Positions 3,098-56,407 of a stretch of 56,675 bases of DNA are shown piece by piece. Under the pieces are notes generated by a model. The model was not told the DNA's origin and ran no database searches. It saw nothing but the letters and a program-made list of their open reading frames with translations. The position numbers and the translations under genes are program-made. The DNA is taken from positions 1-56,675 of IMG/VR virus record IMGVR_UViG_3300044953_000632. One strand, written 5' to 3'. The DNA comes from a virus. Within the stretch, counting starts at the first letter, position 1. Every line of letters begins with the position of its first letter.

Positions 3098-4039
3098 CTA
3101 CCATGGCACAACCTTGCACCAATCCAGGAGCCGCTTCGCTGCATACTTGCCAATAACGCCCTCGATTCGTTCAACTTCTCCCCCTATGTCCTTAAAGGGC
3201 ATATGTCCCTTATTACATAAAGGGCATAGTATGCTCCCTTTTGGAACATTTTGCAAGGGGGAATGAGAAGAAAGCAAGCCAAAAATGGCAAGAGAAAAAT
3301 CCGCCGCCTCCTGAGAAGAACCTTCAACCGGCGCACCCCACGAGACGACGGTGCCGTTCGCCAGCCGGGCAGCTGTGCGAAAACGGCACGCCGCGACCCG
3401 CACCACACCAGTCAGATCTTCTGGCACATCCGTTTGGCCGTGGTCGTTCCACCCCCATGCAACGATGGTGCCGTCCGACTTGAGCGCAACTGTGTGGTGA
3501 ACGCCAGCCGCGACTTGCACCACGCCCATCAGGCCTTTTGGCACATCCGTTTGGCCGTTAATGCCCCACCCCCACGCCACAACAGTACCGTTCGACCTCA
3601 ACGCAACTATGTGGTAAGCGCCCGCCACGACTTGCACCACGCCCGTCAGGCCTTTTGGCACATCCGTTTGGCTGCTTCCGCTGTTCCCCCACACGACGAC
3701 GGTGCCGTCCGACTTGAGCGCAACTGTGTGTGCATAGCCCGTCGCGACTTGCACTACGCCCGTCAGGCCTTTTGGCACATCCGTTTGGCCGTTCTCGTTG
3801 TACCCCCACGCGACGACTGTGCCGTCCGACTTGAGAGCAACTGTGTGGCCCCAGCCAGCCGCGACTTGCACCACGCCCGTCAGGCCTTTTGGCACATCTA
3901 TCGCAACATCTCTTTGGCGGGCGTTGTTGTACCCCCACACCACAACAGTACCATCCGACTTGAGCGCAACTATGTATCCACGGCCCGGCTCAACTTGCAA
4001 AATACCTGTGGAATCGACGAGTTCGCTAGATGCTTCCAT
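3098..4039 (-). CDS. BLIP-II/RCC1-type beta-propeller repeat protein, copy 1
   Basis: A 313-residue protein with six repeats of 39 residues (117 bases at DNA level). The unit reads VPKGLTGVVQVAAG, two variable residues, HTVALKSDGTVV, one variable residue, WG, then a variable turn before GQTD. The period and the WG...GQT(T/D)VP...AG..H..AL pattern match the seven-bladed propeller of Streptomyces BLIP-II more closely than longer RCC1 units. AAGGAG precedes the ATG. The last ~60 residues leave the repeat and contain CPLC plus a segment resembling part of the MoxR protein at 13715. A role in binding another protein is likely; the target is unknown. Confidence 0.85.
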   Translation of the reverse strand: MEASSELVDSTGILQVEPGRGYIVALKSDGTVVVWGYNNARQRDVAIDVPKGLTGVVQVAAGWGHTVALKSDGTVVAWGYNENGQTDVPKGLTGVVQVATGYAHTVALKSDGTVVVWGNSGSSQTDVPKGLTGVVQVVAGAYHIVALRSNGTVVAWGWGINGQTDVPKGLMGVVQVAAGVHHTVALKSDGTIVAWGWNDHGQTDVPEDLTGVVRVAACRFRTAARLANGTVVSWGAPVEGSSQEAADFSLAIFGLLSSHSPLQNVPKGSILCPLCNKGHMPFKDIGGEVERIEGVIGKYAAKRLLDWCKVVPW

Positions 4040-4221: not shown

Positions 4222-4788
4222 TTAGTTCGCGGGGACTCTTCCCCACGCAACAACGGTGCCGTCCTGCTTCCAGGCAACTGTGTGCTCCTCGCCCGCTGAG
4301 ACTTCCACCACGCCCGTCAGATCTTCTGGCACAGTGGTTTGGCCCCAGCCGTTGTCCCCCCAACATACGACGGTGCCGTCCGACTTGAGCGCAACTGTGT
4401 GTAACTCGCCCGCCGCGACTTGCACAACGTCCGTCAGGCCTTTTGGCACACTCGTTTGGCCCCTGCCGTTCCCGCCCCACTCAACAACGGTGCCGTCCGA
4501 CTTGAGCGCAACTGTGTGTACATAGCCCGCCGCGACTTGCACAACGTCCGTCAGGCCTTTTGGCACATCCGTTTGGCCGCAGCCGTTCCACCCCCACACC
4601 ACAACAGTACCATCCGACTTCACAGCAACTGTGTGTGCTTCGCCCGCCGCGACTTGCACCACACCAGTCAGATCTTCTGGCACAGTGGTTTGGCCACTGC
4701 CGTTCCCGCCCCACTCAACAACGGTGCCGTCCGACTTGAGCGCAACTGTGTGGCAACTGGGATCCCACTTAAATGTCTTCACAAGCAT
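4222..4788 (-). CDS. BLIP-II/RCC1-type beta-propeller repeat protein, copy 2
   Basis: A 188-residue paralogue of the protein at 3098-4039 with one partial and four complete 39-residue repeats. The consensus and DNA are almost the same as in copy 1. Differences fall mainly in the two residues before HTVAL (EA, YV, EL, EE) and in the turn after WG (GNGS, WNGC, GNGR, DNGW). The start at 4788 is the first ATG after the conserved leader; the open frame further up runs through the leader hairpin. Its site AGAAAGAGAA is weaker than in copy 1. Five blades alone would not close a BLIP-II-like ring, so it may form dimers or be a shortened copy. Confidence 0.8.
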   Translation of the reverse strand: MLVKTFKWDPSCHTVALKSDGTVVEWGGNGSGQTTVPEDLTGVVQVAAGEAHTVAVKSDGTVVVWGWNGCGQTDVPKGLTDVVQVAAGYVHTVALKSDGTVVEWGGNGRGQTSVPKGLTDVVQVAAGELHTVALKSDGTVVCWGDNGWGQTTVPEDLTGVVEVSAGEEHTVAWKQDGTVVAWGRVPAN

Positions 4789-4911
4789 TTGTGTTCTCTT
4801 TCTGAGGTCTATATTGTTTTGGCAGTCCGACAACGTTGTCGGAATACCTATAGGACCTCCATGCACTTATATCACAATATAAGGCTATTTTTAGTCTAAT
4901 TATTTAATAGC
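4789..4911 (-). promoter_or_regulatory. Promoter and leader of propeller gene copy 2
   Basis: The order is the same as for copy 1: the A/T-rich block TTAAATAATTAGACTAAAAA, ATATTGTGATATAAG, CCTATAGGTATTC, a perfect hairpin TCCGACAACGTTGTCGGA, then AACAATATA and the ribosome binding site. The hairpin sequence differs from copy 1 while its position and stem are kept. Confidence 0.6.
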
Positions 4912-5038: not shown

Positions 5039-5980
5039 TCAGCGATTCCACCACCAGCTGAAAAACTGACCCCAGCTGGGATTGGCAAATGACTCAAGCT
5101 CACGCTCGTCATTTATTCGCTCGCTTTGGATGACCTCCACGACTTCTGCACAGCGAGGCTCCCCCTTGCTAGCGAAGGACTCGATGACGCCCTCGTACTC
5201 GGGAAGATGAAGAGTTTCCTGATCGAGAACATGCTTGGTAAAGATACTACCAAGTCTAGAGACCTTGGAGGTCTTCAAGCGCTTCAATTCAGGCATGTCT
5301 TCACTTTCCAAATCAGCATATGCCGCCACCATGGTTTTGCCAAAATGGGGTACCATTTTGACTCCAGCATCCGTTGCCTCCGTGTAAAGAGTTGAATAGT
5401 CCTCACCGGAGTATAGGGGAACGAGCTCGGTCAGGATCTGGCTAGTGCTGATTTGAGCTTTTTGGCGTTCCTGCGTCTTCAGAAGACGACGGTCAACCTG
5501 TATCGCTGCCAAGTTTGCAGATTTGATCCGATCTGACAAACTTTGTGGAACCTTCGACTTGAGTCCATCCTTGTCCGAACGTATCTCGTCCTTGAGTTTA
5601 GGCGAAAGGAGCCAATCGAGATCGTGATCTGCAGGATCGCGCCAGACGATGTCATCTGATCCGAAGTTGTGATGGCGCGTTCGGAAGATGTTGAGATTCT
5701 GAATTGAGTCTCCCAATATGACTAGGAGGGTTTTGTTCTCGTCGACCGAAAGGAGCCAATCGAGATCGTGATCTGCAGGATCGCGCCAGAGGAGCGATCC
5801 GGTTGGAACCTCAGTAGCCGGAGCCGGGGCCTGGGCCTGAGTAGTGGAGATCTTGCTGTCTTGCGCCGCTACGGTAATAGGGGCAACGAGCATAGAAATC
5901 ACGAATGGGCCCACGAAACCGACAAAACAACCAACAACAAAAGTTACGGTGTGCGTGAAGATGCCTCTGATAACTGACAT
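5039..5980 (-). CDS. Signal/membrane-anchored protein with duplicated WRDPADHDLDWLLS motif
   Basis: A 313-residue protein I do not recognise. The start at the ATG near 5980 follows AGAAGGAGACAGTGACC; the frame is open back to a GTG inside the leader, which is not supported. Residues ~8-40 form a hydrophobic signal or anchor segment (FVVGCFVGFVGPFVISML), then an Ala/Pro/Gln-rich linker. The 14-residue motif WRDPADHDLDWLLS occurs twice, 48 residues apart, and is encoded by an exact 44-base direct repeat. The rest is charged and probably helical and ends in FFSWWWNR. It shares its whole promoter/leader with the gene at 6199. Confidence 0.75.
   Translation of the reverse strand: MSVIRGIFTHTVTFVVGCFVGFVGPFVISMLVAPITVAAQDSKISTTQAQAPAPATEVPTGSLLWRDPADHDLDWLLSVDENKTLLVILGDSIQNLNIFRTRHHNFGSDDIVWRDPADHDLDWLLSPKLKDEIRSDKDGLKSKVPQSLSDRIKSANLAAIQVDRRLLKTQERQKAQISTSQILTELVPLYSGEDYSTLYTEATDAGVKMVPHFGKTMVAAYADLESEDMPELKRLKTSKVSRLGSIFTKHVLDQETLHLPEYEGVIESFASKGEPRCAEVVEVIQSERINDERELESFANPSWGQFFSWWWNR
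5603..5646 (-). repeat. 44-base direct repeat, copy 1
   Basis: These 44 bases are identical to 5747-5790, 144 bases away and in the same frame of the same gene. They encode most of LLWRDPADHDLDWLLS. Such an exact match suggests a recent duplication or gene conversion. Confidence 0.85.
5747..5790 (-). repeat. 44-base direct repeat, copy 2
   Basis: Partner of 5603-5646; see that entry. The preceding residue differs (LLW versus IVW), so the exact match starts inside the motif. Confidence 0.85.
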
Positions 5981-6127
5981 GGTCACTGTCTCCTTCTGAA
6001 TGTGTTTATTAAACACATTCGAATGTGCTTTTAGGCATTCTGGAACACCCAGAATACCTATAGGCGGGTTATGTATTTATATCACAATATAGAGTCTTTT
6101 TTAACCTCATGGATACGTACAATATCT
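5981..6127 (-). promoter_or_regulatory. Promoter and leader, membrane-protein unit 1
   Basis: The unit contains ATATTGTGATATAAATACAT, CCTATAGGTATTC, the hairpin TTCTGG/CCAGAA, then a second hairpin GAATGTGTTTAATAAACACATTC and the site AGAAGGAGACAGTGACC. The block is almost base-for-base the same as 6742-6889. TATAAATA resembles the T4 late promoter core, but a sigma-70-like -10 reading is equally possible. Confidence 0.6.
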
Positions 6128-6198: not shown

Positions 6199-6741
6199 TC
6201 AGACTTCAGCCTTTTCGGCTTTTGCCCTGGGATGCCTGTTAGCCGGTGCCACAGGCGTTGAAACGGCATCTGCCAAATCCTTCTCTGATGGTGGCAGCTG
6301 AACAGCAGTAATTGGAGCAGAGGTCTCCTCAAACTTGGGATCAACCCCATTCCAATACTGTTTCAGCGTTTCCCGTTTGCTTAAGAAGAACGGGGTAAAT
6401 GAGAGCACCAAGAAGAGGCCGGCTGCCAAGGCAAGCAGAATGCCATTCCGCATGAACACACCAGCGGTCCAACTTCCAACGGTCGAAGTCGCGGCATTAG
6501 CAGCAGCATTAGCAGCGTATGTGGCCTGCTGAGTAGCGAAAGCGGCAGCCTCATCGAGGCCCCAAGAAAACGGATTGTACCACCGTTCCCCACTATCAAG
6601 GATAGGGGGGATAGTGAGGCTGCTCGGTACGACAGGAGTACCCATCGTAAGAACAGTAGCCTGATGAGCTGCCCAAATCAGCAGCATGGGCAGACCGACG
6701 GCGAGTAACGACGCCCACACGAACAAAAGAACCTTCTTCAT
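6199..6741 (-). CDS. Two-segment membrane protein, alanine-rich
   Basis: A 180-residue membrane protein of unknown role. The ATG at 6741 follows the same leader and ribosome binding site as the gene at 5039. Residues ~1-33 are a signal or first membrane segment (KKVLLFVWASLLAVGLPMLL). An alanine-rich stretch with aromatic residues follows (WYNPFSWGLDEAAAFATQQA), then a second strong membrane segment (GILLALAAGLFLVLSF) and a charged, proline-rich cytoplasmic tail. The topology would fit a membrane sensor or a superinfection or lysis accessory protein, but no family match is visible. Confidence 0.75.
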   Translation of the reverse strand: MKKVLLFVWASLLAVGLPMLLIWAAHQATVLTMGTPVVPSSLTIPPILDSGERWYNPFSWGLDEAAAFATQQATYAANAAANAATSTVGSWTAGVFMRNGILLALAAGLFLVLSFTPFFLSKRETLKQYWNGVDPKFEETSAPITAVQLPPSEKDLADAVSTPVAPANRHPRAKAEKAEV

Positions 6742-6888
6742 TGTCACTGTCTCCTTCTGAATGTGTTTATTAAACACATTCGAATGTGCTTTTAGGCATT
6801 CTGGAACACCCAGAATACCTATAGGCGGGTTATGTATTTATATCACAATATAGAGTCTTTTTTAACCTCATGGATACGTACAGTATCT
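6742..6888 (-). promoter_or_regulatory. Promoter and leader, membrane-protein unit 2
   Basis: A near-identical copy of the block at 5981-6127; the only clear change is CAATATCT to CAGTATCT near the far end. With the adjoining terminator it forms a direct repeat of about 170 bases flanking the gene at 6199. Recombination between the copies would delete exactly one gene unit. Confidence 0.65.
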
Positions 6889-33932: not shown

Positions 33933-36797
33933 TTACTTTTTGTACTTTGACAGCGCAGGATATTCTGCGACGTCCTCATTAGTCAAGGGCTCGCTCCAAC
34001 GAATGCAAACTTCTTGATCAATGCTCAGCATGAGATCGTTGTTCGGGATTCTGCATCTTTCGCACATCGCTATTCTCATGACTTCCAGGGTCTCTTCTAC
34101 CTGCTCTATAGGGCAGGTTATCAGAACTTGGTCATGAACACTCATGATGATTTTGTATTTCAGATGAGGTCTTTCCAAGTTTCTAATCATGAATAAATTT
34201 ACCATGGCCAAGGACATCAAGTCCCCTACAGTGCCTTGAATAGGTGCATTCATGGCTTGTCTTTTCTGGTGGGATATTAACTCCCTGTCATTAGTTTTTT
34301 CAAATCTTCTCCTTCGGCCAAATCCATTTTCTACATAGCCTTGGGAGTTATCGTTTCCTACGCAGCTTTGCTGTTGCTCTAGCCAATATGCAAGATCTGG
34401 AAAAGTCTCTTTAAACTTGTCAATAGAGTCTTGAGCCTCTTCAACTGTGATGTTGATTCCCTCCATGTACACGGCTTGATGAATAGCTGCTGCGCCTCGA
34501 CCGTACGCAATTCCGAACGTGATAGTTTTTGCAATTGTTCTGTACTTTCCGTTACCTGATTCCTTTAGCCACTCTTTAAGTCCCTTTGAGTAGTCTGCCG
34601 GCGGTTTGGACAGACGGAACATATCTATGGCAACCTCGGAGTGGAAGTCTGAGTCTGGATCGCTCAGTTTTTGCTGCATGTTCCAATCTCCGCTGAGCCA
34701 AGCCATAACGAACAACTCGGCCTGCACCCAGTCGCAATCCAGCAACACCCAGCCTGGATCTGCACGGAAACAAGATCTGATGGACGGGATTTTCTCACCG
34801 GTGTCCTTGAACGCACGACCTATCAGATCTTCTGCAGTCTTTGGCAACTGCGCCATATTGGGATCAGAGTGTCCATATCGTCCAGTCTCTACGGTTTGTC
34901 TGATTTTTGTATGGGCTTTGCCATCAGACCACAGCTTTGAAAGTATGCCTCCTTCGATGGAGTAAGATCCGTTTTCATTGACGATAAAGGATCCGCAGAA
35001 AGTCTTGACTATCTGCGCTATCGCCGTGTACGAAAGCATGGTGTTGAGAAACTTGTCGTCTTTGTTAGACATTATAAGTTCTTGTAGCACACTACGTTCC
35101 GTTGACGGCGTATAGTTGTTCGTCGTCTCAGTAGACTTTATGACCTCCGACCACTTTCTGTCATTGGTGGCTCTGATAGGCTCAAACCTTCTCAGGGTTG
35201 CGGTGATAGGTGGGTTGGTCTTGGCTCCCGGCTTTACCCATCCAAACAGAGATGCAGCCTTCTGCACGGATGAATCTGGGTTGAAATCAGGCCAATTTAG
35301 CATGGACTGCAGGGTCTCGACCAGCTCTTTGCGCCTCTCGGAATATTTTTGGGAAAGAAGTTCCAATCTGTGGATGTCGACGTTCATGCCGGTCATTTCC
35401 ATCTCCAGAATAGGCAAGGTGGCCGGCATGACTACGGTTTCGAATAGGGACTTTATTTTGCTATTTTCGGCAAAGCTCATCTCCTGCTGTTGGACCTGGA
35501 ATATTCTAAAGGTCACGTCGACGTCCTTTGCCGCATATTCGAACAGCACTTCGTCCGATATGTCTCCGTAGCCGTTCTCATCTACGTCGTACTTGTTGTC
35601 CTTGATCCACTTATTCAAAGCCAACTCGTATCTACCCATCTTGGTGTGCCTAGAAGTGTACACCTCCAGCCCTTGGGCCCAGTTTTCATTCAGCAAGTGT
35701 CCCGCCAGGGCGGTATCCCAGCCGAACATTGCCGAAGCAGTAACGTCCACTCCGTTGTGAACCAGCCATGGAAGGTCGGCTCTGATGAAGTGTCCGATGA
35801 GCTTAGTCTTTCCATTATCAACCAGATTTCCTATCAGCTTCCAGGCTTCCGCCTTATTGTTGCCGATATGCGTAGGAAGCATTCCTGCGTGGTTGAACAC
35901 CGCCACTACCGCCTTGCCTGGCGCCCAGCCAAATTGGATGCAACGCAGCTCGCCTTGCAAGTAGTTCTTGCCTCCCCACTCGCAATCAATAGAAAGCCAG
36001 CCCGAATACTCGGACCTAATGGTGTTCAGGCTGCTATTAAGCTGATCGATGGTGTAGCAATAGGTGTACGATATCGGAGTGTCGTCGACCACCTCAGTAG
36101 TGTTGGACTCCAGTTCGTTAGCTATTCTGGCCAGCTCCATCGAAAGTCCACCTCTCATCTCTGGAACGTGCAAGACTGCCGAAAAATCAGTTATGGCCGT
36201 TGTCTTGACGCCCAGCGGGCTTTCCTCGGCAGTCAGTGTCCTGTTCTTGTAGTACTCCATTGTAGCCTTTGCGCCAAACAAAGCCTTTAGGACCTTGGTG
36301 CCTAGGATAATCAAAATATCAGGCTTGACTATCTCCAACTCCTTTTTGAACAGGGGCATGTAGTCTTTGATCATCTCCTTTGGAATGGAGGTCTTCTTTC
36401 CATTAACGTGCGTCTTTACGAATGTGGTAAAGTACACATCGTTTATATTCAGTCCGGCTTTATTCATCAGGTCTTTGAATTCCAAAATCCAATCGCCGTG
36501 AAACAGCCTTTTTTCCTTGTCCTCGATGGAGTTTGGCCAAGAGCCAACCATCATAATCTTTTTGTATCCTGGGCCGGTTATTGCCGCCGCCACCCCGTCT
36601 TTAACGGAATCCAGGTGGATTCCTGGCAAAGTAGCGATTGGAAATAGGATGCCGTCGTCCTTTTCCATCGTTATTTGGTAGTGTCTGTACAGCATATCCG
36701 TAAGTGTGTAATCCAAAGTTTGAGTGCTGTTCTTGGAAGCTTTTACTACTATGTTTCCATAGGTTTCTACATCTTTGTTTACTAATTCAACTGGCAT
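33933..36797 (-). CDS. Family A DNA polymerase fused to a uracil-glycosylase-like domain
   Basis: A 954-residue replicative polymerase. Residues ~70-225 resemble a family 4/5 uracil-DNA glycosylase (IMMVGSWPNSIEDKEKRLFH, PDILIILGTKVLKALFGAK), but the usual catalytic motifs are altered, so this part may only bind DNA. A 3'-5' exonuclease follows with D271/E273, D341 and YAAKD (421-425) intact. The polymerase domain has motif A DCDWVQAE (D689, E694), motif B R753/K757/F761/Y765 and motif C VHDQ (D889). Phage SPO1 has a comparable fusion. CGGAGCAAC precedes the ATG. It lies with primase and helicase as one replication block. Confidence 0.92.
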   Translation of the reverse strand: MPVELVNKDVETYGNIVVKASKNSTQTLDYTLTDMLYRHYQITMEKDDGILFPIATLPGIHLDSVKDGVAAAITGPGYKKIMMVGSWPNSIEDKEKRLFHGDWILEFKDLMNKAGLNINDVYFTTFVKTHVNGKKTSIPKEMIKDYMPLFKKELEIVKPDILIILGTKVLKALFGAKATMEYYKNRTLTAEESPLGVKTTAITDFSAVLHVPEMRGGLSMELARIANELESNTTEVVDDTPISYTYCYTIDQLNSSLNTIRSEYSGWLSIDCEWGGKNYLQGELRCIQFGWAPGKAVVAVFNHAGMLPTHIGNNKAEAWKLIGNLVDNGKTKLIGHFIRADLPWLVHNGVDVTASAMFGWDTALAGHLLNENWAQGLEVYTSRHTKMGRYELALNKWIKDNKYDVDENGYGDISDEVLFEYAAKDVDVTFRIFQVQQQEMSFAENSKIKSLFETVVMPATLPILEMEMTGMNVDIHRLELLSQKYSERRKELVETLQSMLNWPDFNPDSSVQKAASLFGWVKPGAKTNPPITATLRRFEPIRATNDRKWSEVIKSTETTNNYTPSTERSVLQELIMSNKDDKFLNTMLSYTAIAQIVKTFCGSFIVNENGSYSIEGGILSKLWSDGKAHTKIRQTVETGRYGHSDPNMAQLPKTAEDLIGRAFKDTGEKIPSIRSCFRADPGWVLLDCDWVQAELFVMAWLSGDWNMQQKLSDPDSDFHSEVAIDMFRLSKPPADYSKGLKEWLKESGNGKYRTIAKTITFGIAYGRGAAAIHQAVYMEGINITVEEAQDSIDKFKETFPDLAYWLEQQQSCVGNDNSQGYVENGFGRRRRFEKTNDRELISHQKRQAMNAPIQGTVGDLMSLAMVNLFMIRNLERPHLKYKIIMSVHDQVLITCPIEQVEETLEVMRIAMCERCRIPNNDLMLSIDQEVCIRWSEPLTNEDVAEYPALSKYKK

Positions 36798-46674: not shown

Positions 46675-46835
46675 TTGTTTTTATCATTATCTACTAATTG
46701 GTACAAGTTGTCAAAAACAAACTTGCCCAATACGATTATGCTGATAGCCAAAGAGACAACCAGCCTGTAAACAGCTATAAGGAAATCTTTACTCAGTCCT
46801 ATTAGCGCATCTACTGGATTTTCATATGATTGCAT
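46671..46835 (-). CDS. 54-residue single-span membrane protein
   Basis: A small gene starting at 46835 with GGAGTTATTC before the ATG. The product (MQSYENPVDALIGLSKDFLI, AVYRLVVSLAISIIVLGKFV) has one membrane helix at ~19-40 and a charged C-terminus DNDKNK. It is the first gene of the long minus-strand train, and its start codon overlaps that of the terminase on the other strand. Its ribosome binding site lies in the first codons of the terminase gene. Confidence 0.6.
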   Translation of the reverse strand: MQSYENPVDALIGLSKDFLIAVYRLVVSLAISIIVLGKFVFDNLYQLVDNDKNK

Positions 46836-48756
46836 GAATAACTCCGAAGAAATTAACGATCAAAAGCCGAAAACGGATCTAACCTCTTTGGCCCCCAAGT
46901 GGGTTGTAGATATGGCTAATAATATGAAGTCTATATGTCAGATAGATGATATAGACAACATGATATTCACCATGTCTCCAGAGAAATTGAAAGAGATGTA
47001 CAGTCGTCTCAACATGCATGACTTTGCCAAGTTCATGAAAATGTATCTGAACATGAACCAGTTTTCGCCTATTCACCTCACCTCAATGCTCAGATTAAAC
47101 GGTCGCCCGTTCACGTTAGTAAAGCACAAATTTTTTGAGCCCCTTTTCTACCCTAATCTTCCCGATAGGACCTTGCTGGTATGCGCTCGCCAGGTCGGTA
47201 AGTCCACGCACATTGCGGCTCAAGGAGTCCTACAGGCAGCGTCCATAAACCGCTTCAAAGTTCTTTACATGGCTCCTCAGTTCGAGCAGATCCGCAGATT
47301 CAGCCACCAATACATAAGACAGTTTGTACATGAGTCTTACATTAAGTCCATGCTCATGGACGATACTTGTGTGGATTCAGTGATGCAAAAGACTTTTAAA
47401 AATGGGTCAGAGCTATGGTTTTCTTTTGCAAAGTTATCGGTGGACAGAATTCGTGGTTTGTCTGTGGACGGCATACGAATGGATGAGATACAGGATCTTA
47501 ACCCAGAATTCTTGGACATCGTGCGAGAGTGTATGTCTGCATCTGAGCGAAGATCTGAGATGTATGCAGGCACCAGCAAAACCGTAGACAACGTCATAGA
47601 GCAACTTAGGCTGCAGTCGTCCCAGGCCGAGTGGTTCATGAAGTGCCTGTCTTGCAATCACTGGAACATACCGACCGTAGAAGGCTCAGGACCTGGGCTT
47701 GGAGTTATGGAAATGATTCGTCCGGAAGGGCTGTGCTGTGCCAAATGCCACAGTTTGTTGCAGCCGGAGAATGGATTCTGGGTGCATAGGTATGAGGAGA
47801 GGTCTGGTAGCTTTCCTAGCTATCACGTCCCCCAGGTGGTGGCTCCGGTTCACTATGCAAACCCAAAAAACTGGAGATCGTTGATTTTGAAAAGAGAGCT
47901 GATATCTCCAGCGACTTTCATAAACGAAGTGCTAGGGGAGGCATGCGATGAAGGTCAGAGACTAGTAAGTCAGACGGATCTTAAAGCCGTCGGAGTGCTT
48001 GAGGCCAACTCCAAGGACAACGCAGCTAACGCGTTTAAATACGTGGACAGAGTGCTTGGAGTGGACTGGGGAGGAAAAGGAACAAGATTTCAGTCAATGA
48101 CAGCTGCCGCAGTAGCTTGTTACATGCCCGAAGGCAAAATAGACATAATGTTTGGCCATGTGTTTCCTCCAATGATGGACTCAGTGCTTGAGACCAAAGA
48201 GGTCATAGACATCGCCAATCAGTTTAAGTGCACCGCAATTTCCCATGACGTCGCTGTTGCAGGAGAAGTAAGGCTCAGCATTATGAGAAGCATTGGAGTT
48301 CCCGACTCCAGGCTCATCAATTGCAGATATGCTGCAAGCGGAAGCATAAAATCCATGCTGCAGTTCGTGCCGCCGACCGACATAAACCCTACAAGCTACT
48401 ACAACTTAGACAAAAGCAAAGTAATAGCGGCAGTTTGCCTAGCCATAAAGAACAAAAACATACGATTTCCCCAGTATGACAGCATGTTGGACTTGGCCGG
48501 CCAGAACATAATGGACCATTTTTTGGCTGTTTACGAGGAAAACAGCGAAAGTATTTTCGGCACTGAGCGCAGATACATACGCAGAAACCCGGGAATGCCG
48601 GATGACTTTCTACACGCAGTAGCATTTGCCGTAATAACGCTGTGGAGAAGATATCCCGAGCTCATTCCAAATCTGTTAGACGAAGTTTTAGACGGCGATG
48701 AGCACGCACACCTGGGAAATCCGTCTGCATACTACAACAACACAGACCTTGACTAA
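46834..48756 (+). CDS. terL: Terminase large subunit
   Basis: A 640-residue packaging motor. Walker A is CARQVGKST near 117-125, Walker B IRMDEIQD at 214-221 with the catalytic E. A zinc-ribbon-like set C271/C274 and C302/C305 follows. The nuclease domain starts with LGVDWGGKG (D411) and ends with DDFLHAVAFA, giving the metal-binding acids that cut the concatemer. No ribosome binding site is evident before the first ATG, which overlaps the oppositely oriented 54-residue gene; a later start at M27 or M31 is possible. It is the only late gene in this stretch on the plus strand, and no small terminase was recognised beside it. Confidence 0.92.
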   Translation: MNNSEEINDQKPKTDLTSLAPKWVVDMANNMKSICQIDDIDNMIFTMSPEKLKEMYSRLNMHDFAKFMKMYLNMNQFSPIHLTSMLRLNGRPFTLVKHKFFEPLFYPNLPDRTLLVCARQVGKSTHIAAQGVLQAASINRFKVLYMAPQFEQIRRFSHQYIRQFVHESYIKSMLMDDTCVDSVMQKTFKNGSELWFSFAKLSVDRIRGLSVDGIRMDEIQDLNPEFLDIVRECMSASERRSEMYAGTSKTVDNVIEQLRLQSSQAEWFMKCLSCNHWNIPTVEGSGPGLGVMEMIRPEGLCCAKCHSLLQPENGFWVHRYEERSGSFPSYHVPQVVAPVHYANPKNWRSLILKRELISPATFINEVLGEACDEGQRLVSQTDLKAVGVLEANSKDNAANAFKYVDRVLGVDWGGKGTRFQSMTAAAVACYMPEGKIDIMFGHVFPPMMDSVLETKEVIDIANQFKCTAISHDVAVAGEVRLSIMRSIGVPDSRLINCRYAASGSIKSMLQFVPPTDINPTSYYNLDKSKVIAAVCLAIKNKNIRFPQYDSMLDLAGQNIMDHFLAVYEENSESIFGTERRYIRRNPGMPDDFLHAVAFAVITLWRRYPELIPNLLDEVLDGDEHAHLGNPSAYYNNTDLD

Positions 48757-48963: not shown

Positions 48964-51639
48964 CTATGTGGCTTTAAATAGATTGATTAGGGAGGCTTTT
49001 CTTAGCCCCTTTAGCCTCTTTATTGCGGACACTAAAGTGTTCCATACGGGCTTAGGAAACACTAGCGAGGATATGCCATCTTTGTTCATATTCTGCACTC
49101 CTAATTCCTTTAGTTGCATAACAGCTGATTCCCAAGTCACTACCGGTATGTTATAGTACCTCATTTGACCCAATAGATTGGTCAAATCAACGGCCACTGT
49201 GTCTTCCATGGGGTTTTTAAGTATAACGTAGCGCTTTTTGGTGCTATCTCCGGTAAACGTCTTAAATATTCCGCCTTCTACACCTTCGTGTATGAAGTTT
49301 ATCAGGTGTGCTGCAGCAGAATTACTGTTTATATAGCCCTTCGTTGAAACCATGGCTTTTGCGGCATCTATCATTTCGGTAGACTTATTCAATGATTTAG
49401 CCAAATACTTTAGATTGTCCAGAAAACTATGGGGCCCATTGTGCTTTATGGTAAGAGAGTATTGCATGAAGAATGGGAATACGTTTTCGCTGTTTATCAA
49501 AGCCTTAGTTTCGTAAGAAAATGGCGTATCGGCTCTTACAAAAGACCAATCTTTGTCGGCGGCTATAGATGAGGCCATCATTGAGTTCGCCACAACCAGA
49601 CTGTTCAATCCCTGCCCTTCAAGCCATTGAGCTAGCAGCTTAGGCTTAGATCTATTCCCATCTATCGCTATTGGGACATGGTGCAAAGTGGCCAATGCTT
49701 GGGCGTGTTCCATATCGTTCTTGGAGTGCAGCACTACACTATCCAGTCCAAGATCTATTCTTAGCACATCAAATACGTATTCTGCCAACGACCCCTTGTT
49801 GCCTACGAATAAAGTATTAGTCCTAGAGGATTCGTTGATTACAGCATGTATTCCAGAGATTGTGGAAGCCATGCCTGCCATGTAAGCTACTGTTTCAGGG
49901 CCGTAGTCAAACAGATTAGCCACAGACTTTATGGTTACACCGAGATCCATGGCCAAAGACGTACACGGAGGATCCACATCCCCCATTACAAAAGGAATTC
50001 CGATTTTTATTTGATGGGGGTCGATTGACATCTTGGGCAAATTGAACCTCCCGGTGTCAGAATCATAGCCAACGTAGTTCTGCACAGCATGTACCTCTGG
50101 TGAACTAAGCCTAAGTATTATGTCCAAATACTTTTTAGATATCGAATCCAGGAGAAATGGGTGTTTGGATATGCCGGCGTTTACAGAAATAAAAGCAAGA
50201 GCCTTGGCAGGATCTGATTCTAAGAATTTTTCCTCCATTTGAAATGCTACCTCCTTGCCTTCAAATAAAAACTTACCGAACAAAGATGCTTTGCCATCCT
50301 TTTTAGATCTGCATATATTTGTAATCTTTACTATGGCATTGCATATAAGTTCATCTGCCACTTCTCTGGAACCTTGCATCCACAGCTTTCCATCTTTTTC
50401 AAACACCATTTTCTTATCAATCATAATTGGCTGAGACGTAACCACTTTGCCTAAGATGTCTTTCATCTCTTCTTGGATAGTCTCAGAACAAGACGCAAGA
50501 ATTAAGTTTTTTTGAAATGCGGACAACTCCATCGCATCTACAGCGTTTCTTGCATTTGCGCCGCCCATAGTTATCAGCTCAGCGGTAAGAAAGTCCAAGG
50601 GGTCCATCAAGTTATTCTCAGATATCTGCTTATGAATCTTAGGCATGAAGCTGCCTTCCCACAGTTTTGAAATTTTTTCTACAGGCCTCCATACGTATGG
50701 AGTGTCGTCTATCATGACTTTAAAGTTTTTAGACCTTATACACATCTTTAAAAAAGCAGTATCTGCAGCGTCTGTCCAAACAACGGTGGATTTAGGTAGC
50801 AATAGGGGGTCTAATTGACCTATTGGAGACTTTGCCACTACAGATAGTTTATTATATCTTTCTACAGTACACTTTTGGACTATCCTGGCAGCTTGAAGCG
50901 GGTGGTCTAAGACATATACGGCTTCCGAGGAATCTTTGTGACAAGAGTTTAAACCACAGTATCCCGGGTAGTGCCCATCTAATACATTTAAATAGTTAAG
51001 TTGATCTTTGTTTCCTATAAAGCCAAAACCAGAAATAAATCCAGGTTTTAAATAAAAAGGAATGACTAAAAGACCTTCCGTAGCCTTTCCAAAGCCATGA
51101 ATCTTATCTTCTAGCAGCTCCTCTATTTCATGTTTATAGGCATAGCCAAACCAATCTGTAAAGCCACGATTGTAGACCTCTTGCCCCATCCAAAGATTAA
51201 GTTCGCTAAGCCTGCTTGTTGCAAACCTGTTGGCGGTTGGAAACATATTGTTGCGGGCAATTTCCCATACTTTTAGCACTTTTTCATAATATTTGTTATA
51301 AAATGTAGAGTAGTTGATCAAATTCTCCGTAGACAAGTCTTTTATTTTTAGCTCTTCGGCTAATTTGTAGACTAAGTCGTTTGGATTTAAGATTTTGTAA
51401 GCTTGCCCGTATAGTCGTAGTCCTTCACATGAAATCTTGCATTTATCGCAGTACATCCAACCCCCAAAAGGTATTAGGGCAGAGACATACATACTTGCAG
51501 TTTTACACTTAGTGCATCTAACATAGCTGCCAGGTTTGGCAGTGCCGTCATAACCCAAAAGTTTCAGAATTTTTGTATAATGGAAGGCCGAGTAAAACTC
51601 TTCCGAAGGAACACCATCTATGATTCGTTGGATTGACAT
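48964..51639 (-). CDS. Large primase/helicase-like protein
   Basis: An 891-residue protein. An N-terminal zinc ribbon (C42/C45 and C64/C67) resembles that of primases. A Toprim-like section is suggested around residues 239-270 (EAVYVLDHPLQAARIVQKCT). Farther on, VGYDSDTGRFNLPKMSID and VAYMAGMASTISGIHAVI recall primase-associated ATPases of the DUF927 kind. The expected nucleotide loop reads FVGNKGSLAEYVFD (611-624) and lacks GK(T/S). It may bind but not hydrolyse ATP, or act as a structural partner of the second primase/helicase set at 36-39 kb. The start overlaps the oppositely oriented gene at 51620 by 20 bases. Confidence 0.6.
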   Translation of the reverse strand: MSIQRIIDGVPSEEFYSAFHYTKILKLLGYDGTAKPGSYVRCTKCKTASMYVSALIPFGGWMYCDKCKISCEGLRLYGQAYKILNPNDLVYKLAEELKIKDLSTENLINYSTFYNKYYEKVLKVWEIARNNMFPTANRFATSRLSELNLWMGQEVYNRGFTDWFGYAYKHEIEELLEDKIHGFGKATEGLLVIPFYLKPGFISGFGFIGNKDQLNYLNVLDGHYPGYCGLNSCHKDSSEAVYVLDHPLQAARIVQKCTVERYNKLSVVAKSPIGQLDPLLLPKSTVVWTDAADTAFLKMCIRSKNFKVMIDDTPYVWRPVEKISKLWEGSFMPKIHKQISENNLMDPLDFLTAELITMGGANARNAVDAMELSAFQKNLILASCSETIQEEMKDILGKVVTSQPIMIDKKMVFEKDGKLWMQGSREVADELICNAIVKITNICRSKKDGKASLFGKFLFEGKEVAFQMEEKFLESDPAKALAFISVNAGISKHPFLLDSISKKYLDIILRLSSPEVHAVQNYVGYDSDTGRFNLPKMSIDPHQIKIGIPFVMGDVDPPCTSLAMDLGVTIKSVANLFDYGPETVAYMAGMASTISGIHAVINESSRTNTLFVGNKGSLAEYVFDVLRIDLGLDSVVLHSKNDMEHAQALATLHHVPIAIDGNRSKPKLLAQWLEGQGLNSLVVANSMMASSIAADKDWSFVRADTPFSYETKALINSENVFPFFMQYSLTIKHNGPHSFLDNLKYLAKSLNKSTEMIDAAKAMVSTKGYINSNSAAAHLINFIHEGVEGGIFKTFTGDSTKKRYVILKNPMEDTVAVDLTNLLGQMRYYNIPVVTWESAVMQLKELGVQNMNKDGISSLVFPKPVWNTLVSAIKRLKGLRKASLINLFKAT
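51576..51581 (+). promoter_or_regulatory. Candidate -10 box for the plus-strand virion operon
   Basis: A TATAAT hexamer 39 bases before the ATG at 51620. No matching -35 is visible at 16-18 bases, so an activator or phage factor would be needed. The promoter must lie inside the opposite gene because the two coding regions overlap. Confidence 0.35.
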
Positions 51640-52969
51640 AACTGATGACGTCTCTAAAAAGTATTATAATGCGTTTATACAGCAAGTGGCAATGCCTGAA
51701 TACGTCAAGTCTGCAAATATTCCAACCAAGGATGATGCTGCGGTAAAGAATTCCGAATGCTTTGCTGATAGCGTAAACAAGAAGTTTGCCCTTGATAGCA
51801 AGTCTGATTGCTGGTGCTCTGCTCTTTATTTCTATGGCAATCAGTGTAACACTTTAGCGATAGGTAAACAAGCTGAAGTAAAATTATTAAATGCAGCAAG
51901 AGTATGGGGTATATCGGAAGACATAAAGTCTCTCAAGTCTGCGTTTGAGCAGCAGACTATTCCGGCGTCTTACGCAATAACATTTGATCATAAAGGCGTA
52001 AAAATAGAAAGGTGCCCGGATCATACCAAGGAGGCAGCCACGGCTAGCGCTGAATGGCTATATGAAAATAGATTTAAGTTTCCAGTCAAAGTTCAAAAGA
52101 AGGCAGCTGCAAAGCTGCAGGCAAAGGCAAACGTATTTAAGCTAGGGGTAAAGACAGCATCATATATTGATAAACTTGCCAACTCAGACACCTATTCAAA
52201 CCTTAACTGCAAGATAGCCATTGCAATCACTGACCGCCTTAGTGGTATATCCACGATTAAGTGGTCAGAGCTCGAGGACGAGCTGCTGAAGGTTGCCAAC
52301 GATCTCAATACGCGTCCATTCGAGTTGTGCCAAAATGGAGACATCATTGTAAACTGCCTTGAGGCACTTGACGTAAAGCACGGTCTGAACTCAAAGTGGG
52401 GCTCGGCAGTGCACCATCCGATAGACGTATGCTTCAGAGTCAATCTCACCAAGGCTGCGTCCGCAGCTGACGGCGTAGTGCACCTTACCACCGGCACTCC
52501 AGTAGACTTGACGAAGATCAGCGATCATCAACTTGAAAAAGGCCTGAAGATCGCAGGGGATGATTTCTTTCACTACTGCCAGACGGACGGCTTGAACATC
52601 GACCGCAGCAAAGCTGCCGAAATCATACCGACCATGCCTAAGCCAGAAGCTATGAGATTTGAGTTAGCCATCAAAACCGCAGGCTACATACCGGAAACCA
52701 CATACGGGTTGGCTGACCGAATATTTAAGGAAGGGAATGCAATGATGGGATACGGCGCTATGCCTGCATCTCAAGAGACGACGGGTTCCGACATGGCTCC
52801 AAATGAAGACGATGCTTCATTCGAGGCTCGGATGCATGAGAAGAAAGAGCAAGCTAAAATAGATTCGCTTGATGCTCAAGCGGGATTGGCTGCTGTCAAA
52901 GCTAGAAAAGCAAGGCACCAATACGAACAAAGTATTGCCAACAATTACGTAAAGGAAAAATATGATTAA
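51620..52969 (+). CDS. Hypothetical virion-operon protein
   Basis: A 449-residue protein heading the plus-strand operon. It is helical and lysine/alanine-rich (QKKAAAKLQAKANVFKLGVK), with a cysteine pair CWCSALYF near 68 and a polar, charged C-terminal quarter (EARMHEKKEQAKIDSLDAQA). GAAGGA stands about ten bases before the ATG; a later ATG at MPEYVKS is possible. Its end overlaps the first MIKVANN gene by eight bases. A head or internal protein is plausible from context, but no family was recognised. Confidence 0.7.
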   Translation: MIRWIDITDDVSKKYYNAFIQQVAMPEYVKSANIPTKDDAAVKNSECFADSVNKKFALDSKSDCWCSALYFYGNQCNTLAIGKQAEVKLLNAARVWGISEDIKSLKSAFEQQTIPASYAITFDHKGVKIERCPDHTKEAATASAEWLYENRFKFPVKVQKKAAAKLQAKANVFKLGVKTASYIDKLANSDTYSNLNCKIAIAITDRLSGISTIKWSELEDELLKVANDLNTRPFELCQNGDIIVNCLEALDVKHGLNSKWGSAVHHPIDVCFRVNLTKAASAADGVVHLTTGTPVDLTKISDHQLEKGLKIAGDDFFHYCQTDGLNIDRSKAAEIIPTMPKPEAMRFELAIKTAGYIPETTYGLADRIFKEGNAMMGYGAMPASQETTGSDMAPNEDDASFEARMHEKKEQAKIDSLDAQAGLAAVKARKARHQYEQSIANNYVKEKYD

Positions 52970-53510
52970 AGTTGCAAATAATTTAAACACAATATGTTTA
53001 GTTAAGTTTGCAAAAAGCACAGAAAACGCAAACTACGACGATTTAAAAGAGAAAAAAAAGCGAAAGGTGAATTATCTTCGTCGTGCCCTTACAGGTGCAG
53101 CAATGGGGGGCATTTCAGGTGCCGCGTTGGGGTCTGGATTGACTATTTTAGAGCCGAGCGGCATACTGTCTAACAATATTCCCGTAATTTTGGCAAGAGG
53201 ATTGGGGGCGGGTGGCCTTGGTGCGCTTCTTGGAGCGGGGTCGAACATGCTGCAGGGATTACGAGAGGCGGATGTCATAACCCGACAATCCAAACCCAAT
53301 AGACTTAGAAGAGGATTAATAGGCGCTCTCAGTGGCGCAGCGGGGGGGCTTATGATGGCAAATGCATATCAGCGAGCTCGCACTGCTCGGACAAATCTTG
53401 CCACCTTATTGGGTGGAGGCATTGCGGGTGCAGCCACTGGTGGATTAACCGGAGCCTATATTTATCCGTGGATGAATAAGGACATGTGGGATCAACCAGA
53501 TACCGAATAA
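52962..53510 (+). CDS. MIKVANN-type protein 1, glycine-zipper membrane-active
   Basis: A 182-residue protein starting MIKVANNLNTICLVKFA, a start shared with the next two genes. The body holds three Gly/Ala-rich hydrophobic segments with GxxxG spacing (GAAMGGISGAALGSGLTI, GLGAGGLGALLGAGSNM, GGGIAGAATGGLTGAYI). This type of glycine zipper inserts into membranes, as in phage proteins that form a DNA-delivery channel. Basic stretches KKKRKVNYLRR and PNRLRRG separate the segments. AAGGAAAAAT precedes the ATG. Confidence 0.72.
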   Translation: MIKVANNLNTICLVKFAKSTENANYDDLKEKKKRKVNYLRRALTGAAMGGISGAALGSGLTILEPSGILSNNIPVILARGLGAGGLGALLGAGSNMLQGLREADVITRQSKPNRLRRGLIGALSGAAGGLMMANAYQRARTARTNLATLLGGGIAGAATGGLTGAYIYPWMNKDMWDQPDTE

Positions 53511-53560
53511 GGACTTGTACACATAAACCCGATGCCTAAGGAAAGGGGGTAAAATACAAT

Positions 53561-54088
53561 ATGATCAAAGTTGCCAATAATATTAAACGTATGTTAAGGT
53601 TTAAGGCTTCATCAGAAAGCCCTCAATTCGTTAACCACAGTACCGACCCCTTACACCCGGCATTAGCCCCAGTTGGGATGTTCCCGCAGTCATATTACAT
53701 TAGGGGCATGGACGACGAGACGCGGTGGGCTGCGGGTATTGGCCCGACCGTGTTTAAAGCCCCGCAAAGACGCTTAGATCCGTGGAAAGACAGCAGGGGT
53801 CCAACTAACGACTGGAGTCCCATCAGCAGTGAGTTCACACCAGAGCAGTATGCAATGGCAGTGAATACCATGGTGGGTATGGGCAACAGCGATCTGAGGG
53901 CTGACGGTAGCTACGACGACAGCAAACGACACCGCCTTGCCTTTCCTAATGGAGCAGATGGGCCAAGCATTAGTTTTGATCTAAATGATAAAAAATCGCC
54001 ATTACATATCGACCCTAGAGGACTAAAAGACTTCTACCACGGACAATCGAGACAGCTTTTGCCTGGTATGCGGTGGCGGTCCCGATAG
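53561..54088 (+). CDS. MIKVANN-type protein 2
   Basis: A 175-residue protein with the same MIKVANN start and a matching upstream AGGGGGTAAAATACAAT. After a basic stretch (IKRMLRFKAS) the rest is soluble and proline/aromatic-rich (TDPLHPALAPVGMFPQSYYI, GIGPTVFKAPQRRLDPWKD). It is unrelated to its neighbours outside the N-terminus. Unknown function; the shared start suggests a common destination. Confidence 0.72.
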   Translation: MIKVANNIKRMLRFKASSESPQFVNHSTDPLHPALAPVGMFPQSYYIRGMDDETRWAAGIGPTVFKAPQRRLDPWKDSRGPTNDWSPISSEFTPEQYAMAVNTMVGMGNSDLRADGSYDDSKRHRLAFPNGADGPSISFDLNDKKSPLHIDPRGLKDFYHGQSRQLLPGMRWRSR

Positions 54089-54126
54089 GCTCTGTTTAGG
54101 CTCTAATAAAGAAGGTAAAATACAAT

Positions 54127-54822
54127 ATGATCAAAGTTGCAAATAATTTATTAAAGCTCTCTCAGCACATGTTGAAGCGGAGCTACGACCCGAGACCGTC
54201 GCTGCTCCCATGGCGTTATCCACAGCAGCAGCCACAAATGAGGTACGACTATTCTGGAGGCACTGGCTTCCACGCGGAAGGGAAACCTGCTGTAAGCATG
54301 GCTCCAGAGAAGTTTGAGCGGTACCAAGCCAGAATGTTACTAAATCCGTATAAGATGCCGGGGCTTGAAGCCTTCCCCGATGCCGAAACAGCTGCAGCGT
54401 ATTACAACACTGCCACAGGGGGGGACATAGCTTCATTTGCTCAAAGTCTGCCAAAACGGTTTGTCAAGAACCCGGAGGCGTGGGCTAATATGTTTAATAA
54501 GAAGCCCCCCGTCCAATTTGGCAGCAGTTTCCCCGGTGTTAGTGAAGAGTTCCTAAAGGAAACCCCCGATATTGATGTTGTGAATCCGTTTAATCCTAAT
54601 CAGCCTTACTTTGGTAAAAGGTGGTATTTGCAGGATGACGAAGCTCTTTGGAATCGTGCTGCGTACAGACAAACCCCTAAGAATCCCACGGGGGACATAT
54701 TTCACTACACTGAAGGTCCAGATGGGAAGCCAGTTTTTTCCAATCCAGAATACCTTAAGAGCCTTGCAGCCGAAGGGAATAGGCTAATTAAACAGGAGGC
54801 CCCGAAGAATCCGCTTCAGTAA
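54127..54822 (+). CDS. MIKVANN-type protein 3
   Basis: A 231-residue protein with MIKVANNLLKLSQHMLKRSY at the start and the same AAGGTAAAATACAAT leader as the previous gene. The body is soluble, rich in Pro, Tyr, Phe and Asn (SLLPWRYPQQQPQMRYDYSG, DVVNPFNPNQPYFGKRWYL). No homology to the other two proteins is visible past residue ~10-15. Unknown function. Confidence 0.72.
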   Translation: MIKVANNLLKLSQHMLKRSYDPRPSLLPWRYPQQQPQMRYDYSGGTGFHAEGKPAVSMAPEKFERYQARMLLNPYKMPGLEAFPDAETAAAYYNTATGGDIASFAQSLPKRFVKNPEAWANMFNKKPPVQFGSSFPGVSEEFLKETPDIDVVNPFNPNQPYFGKRWYLQDDEALWNRAAYRQTPKNPTGDIFHYTEGPDGKPVFSNPEYLKSLAAEGNRLIKQEAPKNPLQ

Positions 54823-54905: not shown

Positions 54906-55607
54906 ATGCCTGTAAAGTCTGTCACATCTCAAAGGACCTATGAGCAACTGTGGAAAAGTCGAGACACCGTTGGTACCACGCTCCTCGTTATGGTCTTGGA
55001 CTCGTACGGCCAAGAAATCTTTGATATGGATCCCCAGGCCTTCCGCCAAGAGCTTGAAGAGGGATTTGCAGTATCTGACATCCCCGATGTAAACACTGAT
55101 AAGGTATGGGCCCTTTGGAACTCCTTGACGACCGATCTAGTCCATGCCGACGTGTCCACGTTCATAAACTGTGCTAACGTTCTAAGCGGAACGCCAATGA
55201 GCTATGACGTATTTGATGTAGCCGATCCATACGAATGCGCATGGGCGGTAACTGAGCTGACAATGCTGGACCCCAGTACTCCCTACAGATTCAGCCCCGA
55301 AGTGCGCAGATACATGGGGGAGATATGCAAAGAGCTGGGTCTTTACCGCCCCCCACCAGCACTTTTAAAAATAGCGGAAATGGGCGACAAGGACTATATT
55401 GCCAACATAGAATCCTATGCCACTGACACAGTGGAGATGCAGATGATGGTGCAGAACCAGCTTCAATTTAGAGACGACGTGCAAGCTTACGTGGACAGAA
55501 GAACTAGCAAGATGATGTTGGAACTTAATAACGTGCCGTTGATGAATAAAAACTCCGGATCTTGGAATAAGTTTGTGTCAGGATTTGCAAAAGGAATGTC
55601 AAAATGA
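54906..55607 (+). CDS. Hypothetical virion-operon protein
   Basis: A 233-residue soluble, helical protein, not recognised. It has an aspartate-rich front (VLDSYGQEIFDMDPQAFRQE) and a helical end (QNQLQFRDDVQAYVDRRTSK, ending KFVSGFAKGMSK). No good ribosome binding site precedes the ATG; TATAAAAG lies about 55 bases upstream and could be a promoter core. Its stop overlaps the next gene. It could be a head-completion or connector protein, but that is only context. Confidence 0.68.
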   Translation: MPVKSVTSQRTYEQLWKSRDTVGTTLLVMVLDSYGQEIFDMDPQAFRQELEEGFAVSDIPDVNTDKVWALWNSLTTDLVHADVSTFINCANVLSGTPMSYDVFDVADPYECAWAVTELTMLDPSTPYRFSPEVRRYMGEICKELGLYRPPPALLKIAEMGDKDYIANIESYATDTVEMQMMVQNQLQFRDDVQAYVDRRTSKMMLELNNVPLMNKNSGSWNKFVSGFAKGMSK

Positions 55608-56407
55608 ATTTTAATGACAAAGTTAATTTAAAAAAGGCAAACCTTAGAAGATGGTTCAAGGAAAAATGGGTTGACATATCCAAAAAAGACGAGTCAGGAA
55701 AACACCCCCCATGTGGAAGATCTGATGCCGATGAGAAGTCTGGATATCCTAAATGTCGACCCTCTAAAAGAATTTCCAAAGCAACCCCAGAAACGACAAA
55801 GTCAATGTCCAAGTCTGAAAAGAAAAAAGCCGTAGCTCAAAAAAGACGAGCAGAATCGCAACCTAGAGAAGGTAAGAAGCCACATATGACAAGCCACAAC
55901 AAGAAAGCACAAATATCTTCGTCTAAGTCCATAGTCGATGTTCCAATCAAGTGCACTCCAGGATTCGGCTGCAAGAGGTATTTTACTAAAGAAGAGCAGG
56001 CTGAAATCAATCAGGCGAAAGCCAAGATTATGTCTGCCTTGTACCCTACCTCGGGCGACCCTATATCTTCCGGCTTGTCTAGTCCGTATTGGGCAGGGAT
56101 GGGCACTGGAGTCTTGGGAGCCTTGCTAGGCGGAGGAATCGGCAGTGGCGTTGGAGCCCTAGGAGCATTTAAAGGAGACACCAATATAGGACTTAGTTCG
56201 GCCCTAGGCGCCTTGCTGGGTGCCGGCGCAGGGGCCCTATATGGATACAGCAAGAAGAATAAAAAGAATAAAGAAATTATAAACTTAATGCAAGACCTGC
56301 CAGTAGGTGCCGATCTAGGAGATGTTGAAATATTCTCAGATCCTGCACTGAGGCAGCAGCTAGCAAGAGACTTCCAAAGACGACTAATTAAAACGGGCAT
56401 ACTCTAA
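55604..56407 (+). CDS. DUF5872-like basic protein with glycine-zipper segments
   Basis: A 267-residue protein in two parts. Residues ~10-95 are lysine-rich with KWVDISKKDESGKHPPCGR and GYPKCRPSKR, the pattern of the DUF5872 domain found in phage and algal-virus proteins, followed by a basic region like a DNA-binding tail (SEKKKAVAQKRRAESQPREG). Residues ~165-220 hold Gly/Ala zipper segments (GMGTGVLGALLGGGIGSGVG, GALLGAGAGALYGY). Basic DNA-contacting and membrane-active parts in one virion protein would suit a role in DNA condensation or ejection. Last gene before the terminator. Confidence 0.72.
   Translation: MNFNDKVNLKKANLRRWFKEKWVDISKKDESGKHPPCGRSDADEKSGYPKCRPSKRISKATPETTKSMSKSEKKKAVAQKRRAESQPREGKKPHMTSHNKKAQISSSKSIVDVPIKCTPGFGCKRYFTKEEQAEINQAKAKIMSALYPTSGDPISSGLSSPYWAGMGTGVLGALLGGGIGSGVGALGAFKGDTNIGLSSALGALLGAGAGALYGYSKKNKKNKEIINLMQDLPVGADLGDVEIFSDPALRQQLARDFQRRLIKTGIL

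Follow-up and report, generated by a model that had tools for sequence, protein, structure and literature searches.

I propose that MIKVANN, the peptide with which three consecutive genes of a phage genome begin, is the front of a capsid-targeting propeptide, whose helix would dock on the core of the prohead and which the head protease would cut at K-x-A/S. I hold this to be probable, if well short of certain. The window, that is, the whole stretch of DNA analyzed, is a linear virus record of 56,675 bases that encodes a terminase and many phage-type genes (Table 1). The fragment has neither a capsid gene nor a protease gene of its own, so the evidence on those two proteins is taken from relatives.

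Table 1. Features of the window that bear on the tagged genes
Feature	Position	Strand	Remarks
Terminase large subunit	46834..48756	+	Anchors the tagged cluster beside packaging genes
Protein directly upstream of the tagged genes	51620..52969	+	449 aa; candidate scaffold/core protein
Tagged protein 1 (gene 1)	52962..53510	+	182 aa, ATG start, MIKVANNLNTICLVKFAK; MIKVANN tag, K-F-A at residues 15-17, Gly-zipper body
Tag of protein 1	52962..53012	+	MIKVANNLNTICLVKFA, candidate K-x-A site included
Leader and start of gene 2	53546..53581	+	Common to gene 3
Tagged protein 2 (gene 2)	53561..54088	+	175 aa, ATG start, MIKVANNIKRMLRFKASS; no family match; tag MIKVANNIKRMLRFKAS at 53561-53611
Leader and start of gene 3	54112..54147	+	Common to gene 2
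Tagged protein 3 (gene 3)	54127..54822	+	231 aa, ATG start, Pro-rich; tag MIKVANNLLKLSQHMLKRS at 54127-54183
Protein encoded after the tagged genes and before the DUF5872 gene	54906..55607	+	233 aa
DUF5872 protein	55604..56407	+	Leader MNFNDKVNLKKAN

According to an earlier note on this DNA, three open reading frames begin with MIKVANN, two of them behind the same leader, and the proteins are completely different afterwards. The three starts are indeed there, and genes 2 and 3 do have a leader and start in common, 36 nt with 2 mismatches, where shuffled sequences lead one to expect 0.00 such matches. The leader of gene 1 is unlike theirs, and its first codons run across the stop of the upstream gene, which encodes the 449-aa protein. 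The claim that the bodies differ holds for gene 1 against the other two. Between genes 2 and 3, BLASTP finds a single similarity (E 0.002), and because it is weak and begins at the tag itself, the two may be distant paralogs or may not; the idea that they are clear paralogs is unsupported. None of the three tagged proteins has a convincing match to a family in PHROGs or Pfam.

How widely is the tag spread? A DNA pattern for MIKVANN matched 34 stretches in IMG/VR. Many of the contigs are relatives of the window's phage, with one to three matches each, while the matches outside this phage group are mostly short frames or lie inside other proteins, one per contig. The single bacterial match to the tag pattern, from a cyanobacterial contig, was rejected, since it is an antisense ORF that arose by chance. 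The relatives have up to three exact copies of MIKVANN and further copies as variants. A search of the same genome and its relatives for starts of this type, which the earlier note had suggested, showed that in relatives it stands on no fewer than 29 genes, whose bodies are of many kinds and include several families (Gly-zipper, DUF5872, Pro-rich). A position-specific matrix was built for residues 1-16, with training starts drawn from the very genomes that it later scanned. It gave 40 starts of at least 24 bits, while all other start codons reached at most 4.9 (24,279 starts in 12 genomes or fragments). When the gene starts of each genome were compared with one another in an unbiased way, the tag class came out as the main common start; residues 31-43, used as a control, gave at most one pair. 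The tag was not noticed in the regions read of two cultured relatives, Salmonella phage Arash and Vibrio phage D69.

Seven tagged genes lie in a 69-kb fragment of one relative (G013). A 174-kb relative (G012) has six, found only among head, RNA polymerase and terminase-side genes. They form three groups, one with two genes next to that for the phage RNA polymerase, one in the cluster on the terminase side and one inside the capsid operon. Relatives encode a multisubunit RNA polymerase that is split between two distant loci (in G012, L052 11999-16921 and L059 3560-5443), with tagged genes beside the large part. From a GC-rich 183-kb relative (G019), in which automatic gene calls are poor, the tags alone were used.

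The 29 tags permit one to ask what has been conserved, the DNA or the peptide. Between genomes, the identity of the DNA upstream of the ATG is about 0.27-0.36, right up to the ATG. In codons 2-8 it is mostly 0.75-1.0 at positions 1 and 2 (codons 4 and 8, in which V, L and I vary, are lower at their first base) and 0.36-0.75 at position 3. Conservation stops near codon 16. The GC-rich relative has the same tag written in other codons. Since the first two codon positions are kept, the third drifts and the leader DNA is unrelated between genomes, it is the peptide that has been under selection.

The peptide has two parts. In residues 2-12, hydrophobic residues stand at 2, 5, 8 and 11/12, making an amphipathic helix of about 12 residues, with a helical hydrophobic moment of 0.412 against 0.267 +/- 0.023 in shuffles. 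Residues 2-16 have a mean hydrophobicity of -0.02, and with this value and an amphipathic stretch the tag lacks what marks a Sec signal peptide, a basic start and then a hydrophobic core. After the helix comes K-x-[AS], at a variable position within residues 13-24, in 28 of the 29 tags, compared with 11.6% of 576 untagged genes. Shuffling the same stretches of residues gave a mean of 8.1 and a maximum of 16, and the reversed motif occurs 3 times. K-x-S replaces K-x-A in 9 of the tags, and one has neither. K-x-[AS] lies close by in the further tags, too, that were recognized in relatives by their first 11 residues or by the matrix. Just two matches lack it, an isolated 16-kb contig and the chance antisense ORF mentioned above.

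It is at one form of this motif, K-Q-A, that leaders are exchanged. Within one Gly-zipper family, the proteins of G012 and G019 carry the MIK[LI]A class of leader, and those of G013 and a further relative (G015) carry MTPY[TA]HHSP. Both classes run into an invariant K-Q-A, and from there into a common body. Tagged protein 1 of the window is likewise homologous to the MTPYSHYVPSFKQA and MQPYSHHSPYYKQA proteins of relatives, which have the other leader (MTPYSHY/MQPYSHH). DUF5872 proteins have at least three different leaders, the window's own among them; its homologs in relatives start with MISISHNITTMLLKQA, MIKIADN... or MIKIANN.... The leader MIKLASNLKSAYAPHSPNYGKQAMD (L127 4056, minus strand) looks like a fusion of MIKVANN with the MTPYSHH class. 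Two genes of G015 (14481 and 20281; L064 14481 and L065 281, both minus strand) have the leader M[TN]K.A.Y.LLR.YLMQKIA, which ends in K-x-A/S and is possibly a third class.

That K-x-A may be a protease code is suggested by head proteins that have no tag. Among 29 untagged proteins of the head region of G012, K-x-A is the top of 1,495 gapped pairs (121 vs 70.4, z 6.0). The region was delimited by the order of the genes, at a time when several of its proteins had already been seen, on reading, to contain the motif. In 48 tail and 42 replication proteins of the same phage K-x-A has no excess, and in the head-region proteins K-A, K-x-x-A, A-x-K, R-x-A and K-x-S have none either. Because that region was chosen after the motif was noticed, distant relatives provide a fairer test. 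Arash and D69 were found through matches to the capsid protein, protease and polymerase. K-x-A is the top pair in the head proteins of D69 (70 vs 39) and the third in those of Arash (69 vs 43), and it shows no enrichment in the other structural genes of the two phages. Small site-rich proteins have 10-15 K-x-A sites each, as expected of a scaffold that would be shredded. A logo of 133 sites from Arash and D69 reads, from P5 to P1', L or M; E or V; K; E, Q or S; A; and S. The preferences alternate along the site, as is typical where a protease binds its substrate in extended form.

The code of the T4 protease, gp21, is I/L-x-E, and the pair scan recovers it from T4 head proteins, with IxE at rank 1 and LxE at rank 4 of 820 pairs. 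In SPN3US, the second positive control, AxE came at rank 164 and the code was not recovered, and so the sensitivity of the scan is limited. The head-region proteins of Bacillus phage G have a moderate excess of K-x-A (28 vs 16.8, rank 5 of 1,380), and gp19 of that phage (L109 8841-9743), a homologous protease, has K-x-A sites near both its ends. The code may predate this phage group.

The major capsid protein and the protease of the relatives have the motif near their N-termini. In all aligned relatives, the capsid protein has K-x-A/S just before a conserved segment, KLRExGFxRKI (TIKV[AS]RAT, LVKEAGAA, LTKEAGAA; the automatic alignment is a few columns off there). The protease has EKRA, TKQA or EKSA in its N-terminal region, and VKRA in one relative. 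Its gene sits in the capsid operon. That it is the head protease is suggested by this position and by weak family matches, one to the PHROG 'head maturation protease' (5.9e-5) and one, at 3e-8 in tblastn, to a protein annotated as a capsid maturation protease. Its AlphaFold model has a mean pLDDT of 34, too low to be of use, and its profile found no credible relative among solved structures. The capsid profile matches gp27 of phage G (6wkk), which is uninformative on processing, since the gene product is 282 aa and the solved chain 280. A literature search on Salmonella phage Arash found no paper.

The model, then, is as follows. MIKVANN would be the conserved front of an N-terminal propeptide of about 16 residues, whose amphipathic helix (I2, A5, L8, M/L11, L12) would dock the protein onto the scaffold or core of the growing prohead. 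Diverse cargo proteins would be encapsidated in this way. The head-maturation protease would then cut the leader at [hydrophobic]-x-K-x-A/S, just past the helix, to give the mature protein, and the same K-x-A code would serve to cut the N-arm of the capsid protein, the protease itself and the scaffold proteins. What I infer from sequence is encapsidation, a docking role for the helix, a cut that falls after A/S and, if it occurs at all, delivery of cargo to the host. The earlier note had likened MIKVANN to the targeting peptide of T4 internal proteins, which is later removed. Four lines of sequence evidence speak for the likeness (selection on the peptide, K-x-[AS] in nearly all tags, K-x-A in head proteins and the swap at KQA).

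What if the tag were never cut, a stable helix that binds one partner, be it the scaffold, the inner face of the capsid or the phage RNA polymerase? The strength of the amphipathic helix, the high conservation of residues 1-8 and the two tagged genes beside the polymerase gene of G012 would all suit such a helix. The K-x-[AS] that follows it so regularly would not, nor would the excess of K-x-A in head-region proteins or the exchange of leaders exactly at KQA, and I consider the idea unlikely. It is quite improbable that the tag sends proteins to the host membrane or envelope, independent of the virion. Gly-zipper bodies do look membrane-active and the N-terminal helix is amphipathic, but there is no hydrophobic signal-peptide core, many tagged bodies are Pro-rich or of the DUF5872 type, unlike membrane proteins, and the context of the genes is head and packaging.

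The three proteins might belong to one paralogous family that diverges so fast that the start is the last conserved stretch, as might be thought from protein 3, which has tagged homologs (L014, L018, L024) with strongly diverged bodies. Such a family would hardly put the same tag on Gly-zipper, DUF5872 and Pro-rich bodies that are unrelated to each other, nor would it contain homologous bodies that have no tag and stand under a different leader, and I give this account very little credence. The resemblance might instead be incidental, a consequence of the copying of leader DNA (ribosome site and start) or of a recombination hot spot. Genes 2 and 3 have leader and start in common, as do paralogs in G013 and G015. 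The earlier note had named as its own refutation a start conserved only within DNA duplicated with the leader, and the reverse is found: between genomes the leaders agree little better than by chance, yet the peptide persists, with third positions free to vary, and the GC-rich relative encodes it in different codons. A by-product of this kind is almost certainly not the explanation.

The capsid-targeting propeptide has precedents, none of them identical. In T4, the capsid-targeting sequence (CTS) of IPI-IPIII and Alt has front residues that target (4 and 7 in IPIII) and rear residues (8 and 10) that serve processing, and T-even phages carry diverse cargo behind a conserved CTS (PMC9026906, PMC3012670). 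The tag resembles the CTS in being a short N-terminal peptide common to proteins with unrelated mature parts, 29 genes in this case. It differs in sequence and in code, [LI]-x-E in T4 as against an end in K-x-[AS], a code read here from sequence, and in that leaders of several classes, present together in the genomes of the tag phages, can replace one another. Since sequence and code differ, I have not filed the tag as a T4 CTS, even though it appears to work like one. In SPN3US, gp53 and gp54 are identical in their N-terminal 15 residues (MANFVKSKLARESVE), with candidate protease sites inside, and are paralogs of 34% identity (PMC5694885). The head propeptides of SPN3US and phiKZ are like the tag in that one N-terminus stands on extensively diverged proteins. 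They differ in their code, A/S-x-E, and whereas gp53 and gp54 are paralogs, the tag is carried by several unrelated bodies. The site at which herpesvirus assemblin acts in maturation lies between A and S. The logo of Arash and D69 shares the A before the cut and the S after it, and departs from assemblin in the lysine two residues before the alanine.

A broader reading, for which I see about an even chance, is that these phages have a counterpart of T4 capsid cargo that is unrelated to it in sequence: interchangeable leaders (MIKVANN, MTPYSHH and others), all ending in [LM]-x-K-x-A with S after the cut, under a code that also marks cuts of scaffold, capsid protein and protease in Arash, D69 and perhaps phage G. 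If so, there would be a second, independent capsid-loading peptide besides that of T4, and common cargo leaders would also exist under a different protease code. A short sequence rule would predict head cargo and cut sites among the many unknown proteins of a large phage group, and a genome sequence would be enough to recognize the cargo of the virion.

The 449-aa protein has K-x-A 15 times where 5.5 are expected and is the only large protein of the window strongly enriched in it, which makes it a candidate scaffold or core protein; tblastn found no match to it in cultured phages. The corresponding cluster of G012 has a gene of the same length as the one for the 233-aa protein, with a near-identical start (MPVKSVTS).

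Leaders seem to have been duplicated elsewhere too. In G013, the leader DNA of two tagged genes (L060 5957-5981 and 6682-6706) contains ATGTTTTCAxCTGAA, which matches the start of the adjoining MFSSEL gene; leaders seem to have been copied between genes. Two adjoining ORFs of the window (5039-6016 and 6199-6777, both minus strand) start with MFNKHIQKETVTM from GTG and then diverge; in all likelihood a leader has been duplicated here as well, and translation really begins at the internal Met codons. The window also encodes a family A DNA polymerase (33933-36797, minus strand), whose long N-terminal part resembles, by eye only, a uracil-DNA glycosylase domain. Two adjoining genes (3098-4039 and 4222-4866, both minus strand) contain RCC1-like repeats, VVQVAAGxxHTVALKSDGTVVxWG, and a 2,485-aa protein of G012 matches RCC1-like PHROGs.
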